Assembly: GCA_027064585.1 (NCBI GenBank) | Contig: JAMOPI010000003.1 | Coordinates: forward strand, 1-64,000 | Length of the DNA stretch: 64,000 nucleotides | DNA from: Candidatus Desulfofervidaceae bacterium | GTDB taxonomy: Bacteria > Desulfobacterota > Desulfofervidia > Desulfofervidales > Desulfofervidaceae | Direction: 5' to 3' | Shown here: piece after piece, positions 40,194 to 51,437 of the stretch | Layout of the letters: each line of letters starts with the position of its first letter | How positions within the stretch are numbered: position 1 is the first letter of the stretch | Program-made: the position numbers and the translations under genes | Notes under the pieces: model-generated | The model's database searches: none | Seen by the model: only the letters and a program-made list of their open reading frames with translations | What the model was told of the DNA's origin: nothing

Positions 40194-41114
40194 ATGGTTG
40201 CCAAGGCAAAATACATCTGGATGGATGGGAAATTAATCAATTGGGATGAGGCCAAGGTGCATATCCTTACCCATACCCTGCACTACGGTCTAGGTGTGTT
40301 TGAGGGCATTCGTTGTTATGCCTGTGCGGACGGTAGATCAGCGGTGTTTCGGCTTAAGGATCATATACGGCGTCTATTTGATTCAGCCAAAATTGTGATG
40401 ATGGGATTGCCCTATACACAGGAAGAAATCTACAATGCCACCTTAGAGACCCTTAAGGCTAACGGACAAAAAGAGGCCTACATTCGCCCGCTTGCCTTTA
40501 TTGGTGAAGGAGTGATGGGGTTACATCCGCAAGATAATCCTATTCATGTTGCCATTGTTACCTGGGAATGGGGGGCTTATCTTGGTGAAGAGGGACTTAA
40601 AAACGGCATCCGGGTGAAGGTTTCTTCCTTTAACCGGCATTATGTTAATGCCATGATGACTAAGGCCAAGGTGGTAGGTAACTATGTCAATTCCATCTTG
40701 GCCAAACTAGAAGTAACCAAAGCCGGTTATGACGAGGCCATTATGTTAGATACTGAAGGCTATGTCTCTGAAGCCACTGGCGAGAACCTGTTTATTGTTA
40801 GAGACGGTGTCTTAAAGACTACTCCTTTAACCTCAGTCTTACCTGGCATTACGCGTGATTCTCTTATCACCTTAGCCAAAGACAATAATTATGCAGTAAT
40901 AGAAGAACGTTTTACCAGGGATGAACTTTATATAGCCGATGAGGCCTTTTTCTGTGGCACGGCGGCCGAGGTTACCCCGATAAGAGAAGTAGATGACCGC
41001 CAAATTGGGGTAGGCAAACCAGGTCCGATTACGAGAAAAATGCAATCTTTATATTTTGATGTCGTAAGAGGGAAGGTAGAGAAGTATTACCATTGGCTTG
41101 ATTTTGTGGAGTGA
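40194..41114 (+). CDS. ilvE: Branched-chain amino acid aminotransferase
   Basis: A 306-residue class IV PLP enzyme. '[32 protein letters not shown]' is the family start; PLP Lys lies in '[16 protein letters not shown]', and '[11 protein letters not shown]' and '[12 protein letters not shown]' complete the signature. It transaminates Leu, Ile and Val. AGGAGG site 5-8 nt before the ATG. It converges with the ABC gene, overlapping it by 28 nt. Confidence 0.94.
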
Positions 41115-41881
41115 TTTATAGTTATCCAAAAGCGGCCAAAGCGCCTTTGGACATAGATATTTAAATCAAAGGTCTGAGAAAGGAGATTGTTGGTTAAAAC
41201 CTCTTCTTTTCCTCCTTGCGCCAACACACGCCCCTCTTTTAAAAGCAGGACATGCGTAAAGAGGGGCGTAATTTCTTCTATGTGATGTGTTACTAAGATA
41301 ACCGTAGCTGAAGGAGCAATCCTTTCTAAATCAAAAAGAAATTGTTCTCTGGTTGTTAAGTCTAATCCTGATAACGGTTCATCCAAAACAAGTAAGTCCG
41401 GTTTAGCCATCAAGGCGCGTGCTAAAAGGGTGCGTTGTTTTTCGCCTTGAGAAAGGGTGCTAAATGGTCTTTGGGCCAGCTGAAGAATATCTAATCTTTC
41501 TAAGAGTAGAATAGCCCTTTTATAATCTTCTTTTTCTGGTTCTACCCAAAGGCCAAAGCTGGCATATTTACCGCTAATGACGGCATTTATCACCCTTTGG
41601 GTAGGTGGAATTTCGGCTAGAAGTTCTTGTGAGATCCAACCAATGTGTCTTCTCAATTCCCTTAAATCAGATTTCCCATACCGCCTTCCCAAAACCATTA
41701 CCTCACCCTTACTTGGCCAAAGATAACCAGCTACAATACGCAAAAGGGAAGTTTTTCCCGCCCCATTTGCCCCTACAACTGCCCAATGTTCTCCTTTCTT
41801 AATGGTCCAAGAAATATTGTCTAGAATGGTCTGATGCCCTCTAAACAAAGAGATTTCCTTTAAAGCTACTATCTCGCCCAT
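41087..41881 (-). CDS. Solitary ABC-transporter ATPase
   Basis: A 264-residue ABC ATPase: Walker A 'GANGAGKTS', signature 'LSQGEKQR', Walker B '[12 protein letters not shown]', H-loop 'VTHHIEEI'. The pattern '[25 protein letters not shown]' is like the YlmA/ModF group of soluble ATPases. No permease gene adjoins it. I use the ATG at 41881; the longer frame upstream is unlikely. Divergent from the reductase gene. Confidence 0.85.
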
Positions 41882-41995
41882 AATGATTAGATAACACAGG
41901 AATATAGGAGAAACAAGACAAAACACTTGCGAAGGTAGGGTATTTGTGGCATTATAGCAGCAACCTTAATTTATTTGGGGCAAAAGGGGATTCCT

Positions 41996-42967
41996 TTGTA
42001 TCATGTTTTAGTTACTGGAGCCACAGGTTTTATTGGCAGTCACTTGGTAGAGGCACTTTTAACGCAAGGGCATGAAGTCTATTGTTTGGTGCGAGACAAA
42101 ACTCGCCTGCGGTGGCTTGCTGGTTTACCCATAAACATTATAGAAGGAGACTGTACGGATTTCTCGTCCTTAAAATTGCCGCAGGTAGAGGTTATTTATC
42201 ACTTGGCCGGACGGGTAAAGGCTAAAAAAACAGTTACCTTTTATCAGGTTAATGTTTACGGTACTATAAATTTGCTTAAGGCCATTGTGCAGCAAAAACT
42301 TAAGTTAAAAAAGTTTATTTTTGTATCTACGCTAGCCGTGCATGGACTACCTGATGTAAGGGTTATCAGAGCGGATGATCCTCCCTTTCCTCAAACGCAT
42401 TATGCCAAGAGTAAATACTTGGCCGAGCAGGTCGTTATGGCTTATAAAGATATATTTCCGGTGGTTATTCTTCGTCCTACAGCCGTTTATGGACCAAGGG
42501 ATAAAGAATTCTTGGGTTATCTTCAATGTATCAAACATGGCCTTGCCCCGGTCTTAAATCCAAAAGGAATATTGAGCTTTTGTTATGTAAAGGATTTGGT
42601 GGGCTTTTTACTGGCTGCTTTAGAAAAAGAGGTGCCAAGTGGAAAGGTTCTTCTTATCTCTGATGGACAAGCATATACCTGGGAAGAGGCCGTTTCTGTT
42701 ATTGCTAGACAAATGCAGAAAAAACCTCTTTTGCTTAAGCCTCCTAAATATTTGGCTTTCCTTCTTGCCCTCATGGCTGAGGGTATAAGTCTCTTTTTAG
42801 ATCAGCCTCTTATTTTCTCCCGTGATAAGCTTAAAGAAATCTTCCAAAAAAGCTGGTTTTGTGATATTGCAGAAACATGCAATATTTTGGGTTATATCCC
42901 CCAGTATGATTTTACGAGAGGAATGCAGGAGACAGTTGAGTGGTATCAAAAAAGGGGATGGTTGTAG
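41996..42967 (+). CDS. cerR: NAD-dependent SDR reductase, probable ceramide reductase CerR
   Basis: A 323-residue extended SDR: 'VLVTGATGFIGSHLVEALL' binds the dinucleotide, 'YHLAGRVKAKK' follows, and the catalytic Tyr-Lys is in 'THYAKSKYLAEQ'. On its own it would be called an epimerase/dehydratase, but it lies 3 nt ahead of a serine-palmitoyltransferase-like gene, followed by a GNAT acyltransferase. In Caulobacter the SDR in this gene set (CerR) reduces the 3-keto group of the sphingoid product. The start is a TTG at 41996 placed by AAGGGG; a TTG at 41975 is an alternative. Confidence 0.72.
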   Translation: MYHVLVTGATGFIGSHLVEALLTQGHEVYCLVRDKTRLRWLAGLPINIIEGDCTDFSSLKLPQVEVIYHLAGRVKAKKTVTFYQVNVYGTINLLKAIVQQKLKLKKFIFVSTLAVHGLPDVRVIRADDPPFPQTHYAKSKYLAEQVVMAYKDIFPVVILRPTAVYGPRDKEFLGYLQCIKHGLAPVLNPKGILSFCYVKDLVGFLLAALEKEVPSGKVLLISDGQAYTWEEAVSVIARQMQKKPLLLKPPKYLAFLLALMAEGISLFLDQPLIFSRDKLKEIFQKSWFCDIAETCNILGYIPQYDFTRGMQETVEWYQKRGWL

Positions 42968-42970
42968 AAA

Positions 42971-44155
42971 ATGGATATCTTTGCCAAGTGCTTTGCTTTT
43001 AAGAACAGGTTAGAAACGGTTAAACAAGGAGGGCAGTATTTTTATTTTCGCAAGATTTGCTCGGTGCAGGGCCCAGAGGTTATCTGTAAAGGCCGGCGTA
43101 TGATTATGCTTGGCTCTAATAATTACCTGGGCTTGACTGAGGATCCGAGGGTAAAAGAGGCGGCCATTGTTGCTATTAAAAAATATGGAACTGGATGTGC
43201 TGGATCTCGTCTTTTAAATGGTACGATAGATATACATGAAGAATTAGAAGCGCAGATTGCTCAATTCTTTCACCAAGAGGCAGCAATAGTCTTTTCTACC
43301 GGCATGCAGGCCAATCTTGGTTGTATTCAGGCCTTGGTGGACAATGGGTCTATTGCTATTTTGGATAAATATGACCATGCTAGTATTATTGATGGCTGTC
43401 GGCTAGCATTAGGGGAGTTTAAGCGGTATCCTCATAATGATATGGGTGCTTTGGAGAAATTACTGGATAAATATAAAGATAAGGAAAAGCTGATTATTGT
43501 AGATGGTGTCTTTAGTATGGAAGGAGATTTAGCCAATCTGCCACAAATTGTCAGGTTGGCTAGGCAGTATGATGCGAGGGTCATGGTGGACGATGCTCAC
43601 GGTATTGGAGTAATGGGTAAAAACGGTAGGGGTACAGCGGAACATTTTGGTTTAGAAAAAGAAGTAGATATTATTATGGGCACCTTCAGTAAGTCCCTGG
43701 CTACTATTGGTGGTTTTATTACTGCCTGTAAGGAGGTAGTAGAATATATAAAACATGTAGGAAGGGCATTTCTTTTTAGTGCCAGTCTTGCTCCACCCCT
43801 CGTGGCGGCGGCCAGCATGGCCTTTAGAATTATTGAGAAAGAGCCTGAGCGCCGTAAACGCCTGTGGGATAACACTCATTTTTGGTTAAATGGCTTAAAA
43901 TCTCTTGGCTTTGACACAGGTCATAGTACTACCCCTGTTGTGCCGGTAATTATCGGCGATGCAGAAAAGACATTTGAAATGTGTCGTCTTCTAGAAGAAG
44001 AAGGTGTTTTTGTTAGCCCGGTTGTTCCTCCTGCCGTTCCGCCTGGACGGGCTCTTTTACGCACCAGTCTTATGGCCACGCATACTCAGGAACAACTAGA
44101 ACGGGCCTTAGATGCCTTTGCTAAAACTGGCCGTAAGTTAGGGATTATCCCGTGA
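42971..44155 (+). CDS. spt: Alpha-oxoamine synthase, probable serine palmitoyltransferase
   Basis: A 394-residue PLP enzyme that would condense serine with an acyl thioester to 3-keto-sphinganine. PLP Lys is in '[13 protein letters not shown]', the stacking His in 'YDHASIIDG', and '[11 protein letters not shown]' is the aldimine loop. The stretches '[21 protein letters not shown]', '[14 protein letters not shown]' and the C-terminal '[17 protein letters not shown]' resemble Bacteroides and other bacterial Spt more than BioF or Kbl, and no biotin or threonine gene is near. A stop-start GTGA overlap links it to the GNAT gene. Confidence 0.75.
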
Positions 44156-45273
44156 TTAGGCTTAAAGAAGTTAAAACAAAGGAAGAAGAAAAGGCATTTT
44201 TACTTTTACCTTGGAAGATTTATAAAAATGATCCATATTGGGTGCCTCCTTTATTAGAAGATGTGAAGTTTTGCCTCAGCCCCTCTAAAAATCCGTTTTA
44301 CCAACATGCTGAGAGGATATTATTTTTGGCCTTTAAGAATGGAGAACCGGTAGGTAGAATCGCAGCTATTATAGACCATAATTATAATCAATATCACCAA
44401 GAAAGGGTTGGTTGGTTTGGTTTCTTTGAAAGTGTAAATGATCCAAATGTAACTAAGATCCTTCTAGATGCGGCGAGGAGATGGGTGAGGAAAAAGGGGA
44501 TGGAAATTTTTAGGGGGCCGGTAAATCCCTCTACCAATGAAACTTGCGGTTTGCTGGTGGAAGGTTTTAACGATCCACCCTGTTTTATGATGACTTATAA
44601 TCCTTCTTATTATCAAAGACTTTTAGAGGAATATGGTTTTAAGAAGGTAAAAGATCTTTTGGCCTATGAGGTAAACTTACCTTTTGCTGATGAGCCTGTA
44701 AAGAAGACAGAAGGCATCGTCAGGCAGGTGAATAAACGTTACCCCCAATTGACTGTGCGGTCCTTAAATATAAAAGATTGGGATAATGAACTTAAACGGG
44801 TGCAAGAGGTGTATAATAGCGCTTGGGCTAAAAATTGGGGCTTTGTTCCCATGACTGAGGCTGAGATAGAAATGATGGCCAAGCGGTTAAAACCCATTGT
44901 GGTGCCAGAATTGGTCTGGCTGGCGGAGTGGGAAAAAGAACCCATTGCCTTTTTGATGCTTATGCCTGATTATTTTCAGGTCCTAAAGCATCTAAATGGC
45001 CGTCTTTTCCCTTTAGGCTGGCTTAAGTTTCTCTGGTATCGTCGTAAGATAGACCGGGTGCGGGCCGTAACCTTAGGGATAAAAAGGAAGTTTCATCATA
45101 CCGGTGTGGTGCCCCTTTTTCTTTTTCAGTCTAGTCTTATCTTAAAAAGGTTTCCCTATCAGCGCTTAGAGTTTTCCTGGATTCTAGAAGATAATCTGCC
45201 AGTAGTAAAGCTTGCCGAGTTTGCCAATGCTCGCCTGTATAAACGTTATCGGATATATGAGATAGAGGCATAG
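44152..45273 (+). CDS. bcerS: Large GNAT acyltransferase, probable bacterial ceramide synthase
   Basis: A 373-residue protein starting at GTG 44152. 'KDPY'-type start '[34 protein letters not shown]', then '[15 protein letters not shown]', '[12 protein letters not shown]', '[24 protein letters not shown]' and '[27 protein letters not shown]' fit the family that includes the ceramide synthase bCerS of Caulobacter. It would N-acylate the sphingoid base. Families of this type are also annotated just as hypothetical GNAT proteins; the gene triad is what supports the call. Confidence 0.72.
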
Positions 45274-45296
45274 AGCTTTGCAAAATTAATTATAGA

Positions 45297-45408
45297 TGCG
45301 TAAATGCGTGTATGCGTGTATTAATAGATGGGCACGTTCACCCATTCACCCATTTACTCATTCACGCATTAACCCGTTAACTCATCCACGCATATACCCA
45401 TTTCCTTG
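45297..45408. repeat. Degenerate octamer tandem repeat with inverted halves
   Basis: Fourteen 8-bp units run without a gap. The first units are TGCGTAAA, TGCGTGTA, TGCGTGTA. The later ones are TTCACCCA (twice), TTTACTCA, TTCACGCA, TTAACCCG, TTAACTCA, TCCACGCA and TATACCCA. TGCGTGNA at the left is the complement of TNCACGCA at the right, so the array can fold back on itself. The rest of the 298-bp gap holds no credible gene. Confidence 0.65.
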
Positions 45409-46164: not shown

Positions 46165-47520
46165 ATGTTAAAAAGAATTTTTCCCTTGATATGCTTTTGG
46201 TTTGCTATCTCCTTTCCTGCTTATGCTGATATAAATACCGCCCCCCTTTTACGTTATCAAACCTGGCACGGAGAAAGAGAGATTGATGCCTTGGGTCCTT
46301 TGTTTTCTTATACTTCTGGTCCTAAACACAAGTTATTTGCCTTTCGTCCTTTATTTTCTTATGAACGTAATGACCAAACACTTTCTTGGGATATTTTTTA
46401 TCCTATCATCCGGTATAAAAAGGATTCTTTCGGTCCTTCTTTTCACTTTTTCCCTTTTATAAATGCAGGGACAAATTACAAAGAAGTCTTTCCTTTTTTC
46501 TGGGGAAAAACAAGAGAAGGGGAGAGATATGGCGGTTTTTTCCCTTTTTATGGGAAAATGAAGCAGCGTTATGACCGGGATGAAATAGAATTTTTCCTTT
46601 GGCCCCTTTACATTCATTCCTCTAAAGGTGAATTTCATACTACGCATTTTCTCTGGCCCGTATTTACCTTTACAAATGGCCCTCAAAGGCGGGCCTTTAA
46701 ATTTTTCCCTTTGTATGGTTATGATACTAAAGAGGGCGAGTTTGAAAAGCACTACCTTTTCTGGCCCATTTTTATCTGGCAAAAAACTAGGCTGAATACA
46801 GACCGGCCACAAAGCTATTTTTCGGTGTTCCCCTTTTGGGTTTCAGAAAAATCTCCAGAGATGTGTTCATATACATTCCTCTGGCCCTTTTTTCGTTATT
46901 ATCGGAATAAATACTATCGGCACTATGACTTCCCCTGGCCCCTGTTGGGATATTCTAGGGATAAGGCAGTAAAGTCCTTTAGCCTTCTTCCTTTAGTCAA
47001 ATATGAAGAGAGTAAGCATCAAAAGAGTGTGTTTCTTTTTTATCCCCTTTACAAATATGAAATAGAAAAAAAGAAGAATGAAACCATCACGACTACTTAC
47101 ATCTTATTTATAAATCGCTATGAAAGGTGGTTTAAAAACGGCAAACTATATTTCAAATTAGTTCGCTTTTGGCCATTTTTTTATTATCGTCTTGATGAGG
47201 ATAGAGAAAAGACCTATTTCCCCGCCATTATACCCATTGAAGACCCTGGCTTTGAAAGGGTTTTAGCCCCTATCTTTCGTATTTATTATCATGAGAAAGA
47301 CAATGCCGGTAATGTTTATACCAAGTGGTTCTGGGGGCTTTATAGCTACCATAAAGAGGGAAAAAAAGAAACTTATCACCTTTTCCCCTTATTCAATTGG
47401 GAAAAGACACCAGAGAAAAAAAGGCTCTCCCTGCTAGCCGGTCTTTTTCAAAGTATTACTAACAAAAAGTCTCATTATTTAAAAGTGCTTTATTTATTTA
47501 ATTTTAAATTGAATAAATAA
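46165..47520 (+). CDS. Exported aromatic-repeat (WP-L/F-F) protein, function unknown
   Basis: A 451-residue protein with a signal peptide ending 'FPAYAD'. The mature part is built from about 15 loosely repeated strands of 20-30 residues, each with a core like 'FFLWPLYIHSSKGEF', 'HFLWPVFTFTNGPQ', 'KFFPLYGYDTKEGEF', 'LFWPIFIWQK', 'FLWPFFRYYRN', 'DFPWPLLGYSRDK'. Trp-Pro and Phe-Pro pairs recur with alternating aromatic residues, suggesting a beta-barrel or beta-propeller in the outer membrane. It does not end in the usual aromatic residue. I do not recognise a characterised family. The 46-bp leader is short and no operon partner is clear. Confidence 0.7.
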   Translation: MLKRIFPLICFWFAISFPAYADINTAPLLRYQTWHGEREIDALGPLFSYTSGPKHKLFAFRPLFSYERNDQTLSWDIFYPIIRYKKDSFGPSFHFFPFINAGTNYKEVFPFFWGKTREGERYGGFFPFYGKMKQRYDRDEIEFFLWPLYIHSSKGEFHTTHFLWPVFTFTNGPQRRAFKFFPLYGYDTKEGEFEKHYLFWPIFIWQKTRLNTDRPQSYFSVFPFWVSEKSPEMCSYTFLWPFFRYYRNKYYRHYDFPWPLLGYSRDKAVKSFSLLPLVKYEESKHQKSVFLFYPLYKYEIEKKKNETITTTYILFINRYERWFKNGKLYFKLVRFWPFFYYRLDEDREKTYFPAIIPIEDPGFERVLAPIFRIYYHEKDNAGNVYTKWFWGLYSYHKEGKKETYHLFPLFNWEKTPEKKRLSLLAGLFQSITNKKSHYLKVLYLFNFKLNK

Positions 47521-48851: not shown

Positions 48852-49931
48852 ATGCAATTAGTTGAGCAAATATTAAAGGCCTTTAAAGGCATTGTTTTTA
48901 TTACGGATGAGAAAGATACGATAATTCAATGTTTTGGTTTGGTTGAAGAAATTCTTGCTTATTCTCCAGAAGAATTGAAGGGTAGGTCTATTACCATTCT
49001 TTTCTTCCCAGAAGACCGAGAGATTTTATTTTCTAATTTGAAATATAAAGTGCGGACAATAGGCTTTTTTAAAGGCCGCATTGCTTTTCTTGGAAAAAAC
49101 GGGCAAAAGAGAATTTTGGAGCTTTATTTAAGCTCAGACAAAGGGGAAAAGTGGACATATATCCTTAAAGATTGCACTGAAGAAGTAGAAAGAGAACGTA
49201 AAATAAAAGAACACATCAAATACCTATCTTTGGGCGAAATTGCCAATGTTCTGGCCCATCATCTACGTAATCCTATTACCGGCATTGGGGGCTTTTCTAA
49301 AAGGGCCTTGCGGATTTGCATGACAGATCCCAAGTGTCGTGAGTATTTGCAGATTATTCAAAAACAGGCAGAAAGACTTGAAAAACTGGTCAAGGTTATA
49401 GAAACATTTGTCTTTTTACCATCTCCCCATTTTCAGCCAGTGGTTTTTATTAAGCTGTTAAAACAAGTTCTTCAGAGATGGATCAAAAGATATCCTGACA
49501 GACGTTGGCGGTTTTATGTTAGTCCTTCCTATGGTTCCCTTTCTCTGAAGATTATGGGAGATCCTTTGTTGTTGGAAATGGCCTTAGATGAACTCCTTAA
49601 AAATGCGTGTAATTTTACGAAAACCAAGGATATGATTCAAATCTTGTTAGATAAGGAGATAAAAAACGATAGAGAGTATGTAAGGCTGATTATTAAAGAT
49701 ACTGGTCAAGGTATGAATAAAGAAGATTTAGAAAATATCTTTAACCTTTTTTATACCAAAAGGCCGGAAGAGATAGGTATTGGCCTAACTCTTACCCAAA
49801 AGATCATTAAAATGCATAACGGAGACATCTCTTTTCAAAGTGAGCTAGGAAGGGGTACACAGGTCCAAGTAGAAATACCTGTAGACAGACGCAGGCTGAT
49901 TAGATATATGCGTTTAAAACGAGCTGAGTAG
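48852..49931 (+). CDS. Soluble PAS-HisKA-HATPase sensor kinase
   Basis: A 359-residue cytoplasmic kinase without membrane segments. PAS domain ('GIVFITDEKDTIIQCFGLVEEILAYSPEELKG') at about 10-115, phospho-acceptor His in 'VLAHHLRNPITGIGGF', ATPase N-box 'DELLKNACNF', 'DTGQGMNKEDLENIFNLFYT' and 'GIGLTL'. No regulator gene adjoins it. It converges with the ACT-MBL gene, overlapping it by 18 nt. Confidence 0.88.
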   Translation: MQLVEQILKAFKGIVFITDEKDTIIQCFGLVEEILAYSPEELKGRSITILFFPEDREILFSNLKYKVRTIGFFKGRIAFLGKNGQKRILELYLSSDKGEKWTYILKDCTEEVERERKIKEHIKYLSLGEIANVLAHHLRNPITGIGGFSKRALRICMTDPKCREYLQIIQKQAERLEKLVKVIETFVFLPSPHFQPVVFIKLLKQVLQRWIKRYPDRRWRFYVSPSYGSLSLKIMGDPLLLEMALDELLKNACNFTKTKDMIQILLDKEIKNDREYVRLIIKDTGQGMNKEDLENIFNLFYTKRPEEIGIGLTLTQKIIKMHNGDISFQSELGRGTQVQVEIPVDRRRLIRYMRLKRAE

Positions 49932-51437
49932 TTCTGGCGTATAATGTTCTATTTCTCCATATATCTCTAGTTCTTTTTCCTTTAGTACTGAAATAGCCCC
50001 GTGTCCTCCACAGATGAGACACCTGCGACCCTGAGAAGCTAGTTGGGCATCAGTTTCAGCCGCAATTTCCAGTAAGGCTTCTCTTTCCTTAGCAGCAATT
50101 TCACTGTCTACATTCACCGAAGTCATAAGGATTTTGGCCAAGGTATTAAATCGCTTTCTTTCTGGGGTGAAGCTTTTAAAATTCATCAGACTATCTCCTG
50201 TAAACAAGAGCCCATATTCAGGACAGAAGAAGAATACCTGCCCATAAAGATGTCCTCCTAGGCTTTCAAGAACTTCAAACTTAAGCGGTCCTACTTGAAA
50301 CCGATAGATGATGGGAAAGATATTACGCAGGCCCAACACCTGCGTGGGAAAAACTTTTATCTTTTTAGGTGGGGTGAATTTAGAAAAGAGGTTAATAAGT
50401 TTGGTGTAGACTTCTTCTAAGATATACCCTTCTACTCTTGAACCATAGGCCCGGTTAGCCTTTTCAATGATTTCTACCGTGCCTTGGTGCATATAAGAGG
50501 GAATGTTATAGAAGCCACCTGCCCCAGCGTGGTCAGCATCGGCGTGAGTAATGAAGATGCGGCTTAATCTGTTCAAGTCTCCCAGGCCGTAATGTTGAAA
50601 CATCCTCATTACATCTGGGTAATATATGCCAAAACCGGTGTCAATCATGACCATTTCTTCAGGCGTGTTTAAGATAAAGATGTTACCCCCACAGGGCATC
50701 TGGAAACAGAAAAGTTCTATCCCTGCTTCTATCTTGATGCGCTGAAGATCGGCATAGAATCCCCTGCCAGAGGTTTCTTTAAGGGTTTTACCACTAAGAA
50801 TGATGCTTTCAAAGACATCCTTGGGCTCTTGTTTTAGATTGGTTAATTCTTGGACAATGTGGTTAATATCATGTAGGAGCTTTAGTAAAAACGCATCCTC
50901 AGCCGTGCCGATAATTTCCCGCAACTGTTGAGCAAAACGGATATAAAAAACCGTATTATCCAAGTGCCGTCCACGCGTGTCATATTCTAAGATTTCAATG
51001 CGGTAGCGGGATTTTAAGTCATTAAGAAGTTTGTCTATTATTTCGCTGTTTTCTATTGTTAGACTGACAGTGAGCCTATCTGGGTGTTTGCCCCGTTCGT
51101 CAAAGTCTAAAAAGGCAATGTTGGCCCGGGCCGAGGTAGTGTAATTTAGAAATTCAAAGAGGGCCCCTGGCCGATTAGGTAGATAAATATTAAATTTCAA
51201 AAAACCAACAGGTTGTAACGATTCCTGGAGATAACCAATCTTATGCAATTCTTCTTTGATTTTCTTATCTGCCTTGTCTGAATCCACCGTAATTTCAAAA
51301 AAGACTGTGTGCGGATCTATACGGTGATCATAGTGAATACGACTGATGTTGCTGTTATACTTGCGGATAATCTCAGCTGCCTTGTGCAAGGCCCCTGGTT
51401 CATTAGGCATTCGGGCAATAAAATGCAGCTTTTTCAT
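49914..51437 (-). CDS. ACT-ACT-metallo-beta-lactamase fusion
   Basis: A 507-residue protein. Residues 1-75 ('LHFIARMPNEPGALHKAAEIIRKYNSNISRIHYD') and about 80-155 ('KFNIYLPNRPGALFEFLNYTTSARANIAFLDFDE') are two ACT-type ligand-binding domains. A helical linker follows. From about 240 the MBL fold shows 'MVMIDTGFGIYYPDV', the metal motif 'ITHADADHAG', 'LGGHLYGQ', 'LLFTGDSLMNF' and 'GGHG'. It looks like a metal hydrolase or oxygen-reductase-type flavodiiron relative without flavodoxin, gated by an amino acid. Substrate unknown. SD GGAGGA precedes the ATG. Confidence 0.8.
   Translation of the reverse strand: MKKLHFIARMPNEPGALHKAAEIIRKYNSNISRIHYDHRIDPHTVFFEITVDSDKADKKIKEELHKIGYLQESLQPVGFLKFNIYLPNRPGALFEFLNYTTSARANIAFLDFDERGKHPDRLTVSLTIENSEIIDKLLNDLKSRYRIEILEYDTRGRHLDNTVFYIRFAQQLREIIGTAEDAFLLKLLHDINHIVQELTNLKQEPKDVFESIILSGKTLKETSGRGFYADLQRIKIEAGIELFCFQMPCGGNIFILNTPEEMVMIDTGFGIYYPDVMRMFQHYGLGDLNRLSRIFITHADADHAGAGGFYNIPSYMHQGTVEIIEKANRAYGSRVEGYILEEVYTKLINLFSKFTPPKKIKVFPTQVLGLRNIFPIIYRFQVGPLKFEVLESLGGHLYGQVFFFCPEYGLLFTGDSLMNFKSFTPERKRFNTLAKILMTSVNVDSEIAAKEREALLEIAAETDAQLASQGRRCLICGGHGAISVLKEKELEIYGEIEHYTPELLSSF

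Follow-up and report, generated by a model that had tools for sequence, protein, structure and literature searches.

A three-gene operon predicted to make the ceramide backbone in a Desulfofervidaceae bacterium

Introduction

The ceramide pathway is already known from other bacteria, Desulfobacterota included. In the Caulobacter/Rhodobacteria cluster, which includes the E. coli BL21 locus, the genes are arranged as aasR-cerR-acpR-spt with a separate cerS, and bacterial cerS has been stated to lie always in a different operon (PMC11324152). The order of the two steps that follow Spt is disputed for Caulobacter (PMC11087976, PMC11324152). The genes of the BL21 locus are the subject of PMC9386255, in which the acyltransferase gene ECD_02850 was suggested to encode the N-acyltransferase that makes (dihydro)ceramide; because of its position in this locus we take ECD_02850 to be yghO. 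For sphingolipid-producing Bacteroidota, the three genes are reported not to be clustered (PMC11334938), and the ketosphinganine reductase of B. thetaiotaomicron is a 31-kDa SDR, BT_0972 (PMC9278070). For the Black Sea, The same source, an account of the Black Sea published in 2024, reports likely sphingolipid production by Desulfobacterota and describes anaerobes of this and other groups in which Spt-like genes lie near homologues of CerR and bCerS (PMC11334938).

Here, we describe a locus of this kind in a Candidatus Desulfofervidaceae bacterium. The window, that is the whole stretch of DNA analysed, comprises 64,000 nucleotides, and the assignment of its host to the Desulfobacterota, which an earlier note had made from the letters alone, holds. 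As in the Caulobacter/Rhodobacteria cluster, homologous Spt, CerR and N-acyltransferase (CerS/bCerS) are encoded, but acpR and aasR orthologues were not recognised. Adjacent genes also set the window apart from these Bacteroidota. Compared with the literature considered, two things are new: the predicted ceramide capacity of Desulfofervidaceae and a cerS that overlaps spt within one operon. Neither this family nor the operon layout of the window is named in the available portion of the Black Sea account (PMC11334938).

Results

Layout of the operon

The locus consists of three genes on the same strand:

41996-42967, plus strand: cerR, extended SDR; TTG start, TAG stop
42971-44155, plus strand: spt, alpha-oxoamine synthase; ATG start, TGA stop
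44152-45273, plus strand: bcerS, tandem-GNAT; GTG start, TAG stop

Three nucleotides (AAA) separate cerR from spt, and spt and bcerS overlap by 4 nt (GTGA), the GTG start of bcerS lying within the last four bases of spt. The three reading frames, their coordinates, the gap and the overlap had been given in the earlier note and are exact to the base. The element AAAAGGGG is located 6 nt upstream of the TTG of cerR at 41996, and a second in-frame TTG at 41975 is an alternative start. A promoter scan gave a signal no better than that of shuffled sequences. We consider it very probable (roughly 0.88) that cerR, spt and bcerS are translationally coupled in a single operon that serves to build the ceramide backbone, covering the Spt, bCerS and CerR steps.

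The upstream neighbour is a divergent ABC ATPase gene (41087-41926, minus strand). On the 3' side, about 300 non-coding bases follow bcerS and then unrelated genes. Just past bcerS, this gap contains a degenerate tandem repeat (45296-45403), which consists of an 8-bp unit ATGCGTGT in 3.2 copies and, in its second part, of eight copies of an 8/24-bp unit resembling TTCACCCA. Further downstream, a 451-amino-acid protein (46165-47520, plus strand) has a signal-like N-terminus, repeated FPLF/WPLF/YPLY-like motifs and no Pfam match; it looks like a repetitive protein and is perhaps exported. A gene at 49914-51437 (minus strand) encodes a fusion of ACT-type domains with a metallo-beta-lactamase fold.

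Conservation of gene order

The trio was found in identical order in all four other Desulfofervidaceae genomes examined (5/5 with the window genome), and the SDR-synthase-GNAT order also occurs in many other Desulfobacterota. Among 80 GNAT homologues, taken from named genomes of many phyla, the synthase lay within 6 kb of the GNAT in 51 cases and all three genes were present in 38. Since the order recurs across genomes of the family and the phylum, the arrangement of the trio is not due to chance, and this synteny excludes the GNAT as a chance neighbour. When the open reading frames around the operon were compared in 11 genomes, whose gene neighbourhoods are otherwise unrelated, the trio was the only block common to all, and the remaining widely shared reading frames overlapped the trio in other frames. 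No head-group or transport gene beside the operon was common to the 11 loci. The 4-nt overlap of spt and cerS in the window and the close spacing in its relatives are a clear exception to the published rule of a separate operon for cerS (PMC11324152).

Related arrangements were seen elsewhere. A Rubrobacter radiotolerans plasmid (L082, 10707-14074) carries an overlapping spt-bcerS pair; next come genes for a CerR-like SDR and for an LTA-synthase-like protein.

The synthase groups with Spt

Among the NCBIfam models, the spt product matched SerpalmtaseCFB (NF047600, Bacteroidota type) best, with 534 bits and ahead of the BioF and Kbl models. This score misses the cut-off of 640 bits, which was set for the Bacteroidota-type equivalog and is a model threshold rather than a definition of the enzyme class; the BioF and Kbl models likewise stayed below theirs. 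In the comparison with PDB chains, Sphingobacterium SPTs ranked first with 413 bits, followed by a Thermus synthase (326 bits), the Sphingomonas SPT (297 bits) and Kbl (at most 288 bits), with CFAT (263 bits), SulA (252 bits) and BioF (at most 220 bits) further down. The Sphingobacterium/Bacteroidota enzyme (PDB 3a2b; NF047600) is the closest characterised Spt, and its active-site signature is shared by the window protein.

Reference sequences for the phylogeny came from E. coli, Sphingomonas, Rhizobium, Legionella, Agrobacterium, Azospirillum and PDB chains. In the careful tree, the synthase fell inside a 25-row Spt clade (support 100/99) that is separate from the Kbl, BioF and HemA sequences; it lay outside the Rhodobacteria clade, and a quick tree placed it in the Spt clade as well (support 98). 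The earlier note had named a grouping with BioF or Kbl as an outcome that would speak against the ceramide reading; the synthase groups with Spt. Alignment to 3a2b indicated that the PLP lysine and the conserved Arg are present. At the position of Lys281 of SulA, where Ala in Spt versus Lys in SulA is the diagnostic residue (PMC9304779), the window synthase and all operonic relatives aligned carry Ala. The window synthase has an Spt-type FSAS motif. The same position is occupied by Asn in Kbl, by Thr in BioF and HemA and by Lys in SulA (cysteate transferase).

These data bear on two other assignments. It is extremely improbable that we are dealing with a true BioF or Kbl beside unrelated genes: the superfamily is shared, and such proteins are frequently annotated as glycine C-acetyltransferase or BioF, but the conserved trio argues against this assignment and it is excluded by the tree, by the diagnostic residue and by the search of the genome for biotin synthase BioB, which gave no match above the cut-off. 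The synthase is the sole member of its superfamily found in this genome, which is rated 100% complete. We regard it as highly improbable, too, that the condensing step is that of a cysteate acyltransferase (SulA/CFAT), with sulfonolipids of the capnine type as the product of the operon. Fold, type of condensation and the overall plan of the pathway, with a condensing enzyme, a reductase and an N-acyltransferase, are shared, and both enzymes appeared among the PDB matches; however, similarity is markedly lower (252-263 bits versus 413 for SPT) and the SulA-defining lysine is replaced in the window and in every operonic relative aligned (PMC9304779), so that residue and score exclude the cysteate transferase.

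A third possibility leaves the pathway unchanged but assumes that Spt prefers L-alanine (or glycine), so that 1-deoxyceramides would be formed and not ceramides. In the upper euxinic Black Sea, 1-deoxyceramides and sulfono-1-deoxyceramides were tied by co-abundance to Desulfobacterota and/or Bacteroidota, but the link consists of co-abundance and concerns other lineages (PMC11334938). The compared active-site residues of the window Spt fit serine-using SPTs, although they still allow alanine, and we consider the alanine variant unlikely. The preferred reading is a serine-using Spt.

A synthase on a Priestia megaterium plasmid (L088, 4001-5215) shares 50% identity with the window Spt, and it falls within the Spt clade. 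It adjoins a methyltransferase gene and an acyltransferase-family gene, with no CerR or bCerS beside it.

The reductase and the acyltransferase

For CerR and CerS we used the sequences of E. coli BL21 and Sphingomonas as references, which stand in for Caulobacter. The cerR product matched Pfam Epimerase (1.6e-36) and is an NAD(P)-binding extended SDR. It was located in a 33-row CerR clade (support 100) together with CerR of BL21 and Sphingomonas, and this clade leaves out E. coli RfaD as well as three SDR paralogues from the window genome. Similarity to the two reference enzymes was low, at 27-29% (E about 1e-29), a level at which a search with simple thresholds could overlook this CerR. The protein is a predicted 3-oxo-sphinganine/oxidised-ceramide reductase. 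No N-terminal signal peptide was visible in its sequence, which begins directly at the Rossmann strand. The CerR of Caulobacter is reported to be periplasmic.

The window GNAT protein was recognised neither by Pfam nor by NCBIfam, and 33 of 39 relatives match Pfam Acetyltransf_1. Over 99% of its length, it is about 35-36% identical to YghO of E. coli BL21 and about 32-33% to the Sphingomonas N-acyltransferase. Its AlphaFold (AF2) model had a pLDDT of 91 and a pTM of 0.89, and in a Foldseek search of the PDB the top matches of this model were tandem GNATs (best E 1e-15). Family alignment and predicted fold thus indicate that the assignment to the GNAT fold holds despite the Pfam miss. We predict that bcerS encodes a tandem-GNAT N-acyltransferase acting as bacterial ceramide synthase, but homology alone leaves its substrate unfixed because some members of the GNAT family have no neighbouring spt. 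Homology, phylogeny, synteny and predicted fold of the trio establish the gene identities, and the match to the three enzymes of bacterial ceramide synthesis proposed in the earlier note is upheld on the same grounds.

Two further loci (L070, 5739-6839; L071, 6448-7548) have the CerR-Spt-CerS order of the window and an Spt that is about 61% identical. Their GNAT is only 29-30% identical and has motifs in common with a Prevotella protein (L083), and the acyltransferase may have been replaced within the operon.

Discussion

The enzymatic steps and their sequence are inferences, as are the use of serine, the source of the acyl group and the transport of the product to the outer membrane. Spt would form 3-oxo-sphinganine by condensing L-serine and a long-chain acyl thioester, bCerS would N-acylate the long-chain base and CerR would reduce the 3-keto group. 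By analogy with Caulobacter, the product may then be delivered to the outer membrane.

The earlier note had remarked that a dedicated acyl carrier protein gene is lacking, and this was borne out: none lies beside the operon, and orthologues of AcpR and AasR were not recognised in the genome. A query with BL21 AcpR gave no match and an AasR query only partial AMP-ligase matches (about 30%), each being a weakly negative result of a single-sequence query. The specialised AcpR and AasR of the rhodobacterial five-gene ceramide system were thus not recognised in the window genome. One TIGR00517 ACP was detected and no second ACP was recognised. Since there is neither a recognised AcpR/AasR pair nor a second ACP, the most likely acyl donor is housekeeping acyl-AcpP or acyl-CoA. 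LpxC is present in the genome, so LPS is probably made and the sphingolipid would coexist with it; replacement of LPS by a sphingolipid was rejected for the same reason.

Ca. Desulfofervidus auxilii is a partner of thermophilic ANME-1 (PMC9201399), and we found no lipid data for any Desulfofervidaceae in the literature. A study of sediment from the Guaymas Basin treated one ceramide, Cer 18:0;O2/16:0;O, as unrelated to AOM; its lipid group had delta-13C values of -11 to -44 per mil, and methane-derived bacterial ether lipids were depleted (PMC12322946). These values suggest that AOM partners are not the main source of that one ceramide at this site, and the measurement indicates that an isotope test of ceramide source is feasible (PMC12322946). 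It is conceivable, although we hold it tentatively, that the whole family has ceramides in its membranes, the sulfate-reducing partner in thermophilic AOM included, and that 13C-depleted ceramides are an unrecognised marker of thermophilic AOM.

This minimal three-gene version, with no recognisable dedicated ACP or acyl-ACP synthetase, is useful for reconstitution of the pathway and for deciding which of the two steps, reduction or N-acylation, is the earlier one. The predicted sphingolipid makers would gain a family of anaerobes that is known for syntrophic partnerships with methanotrophic archaea, and it becomes questionable to assume that ceramides found in AOM sediments can have no connection with methane turnover.
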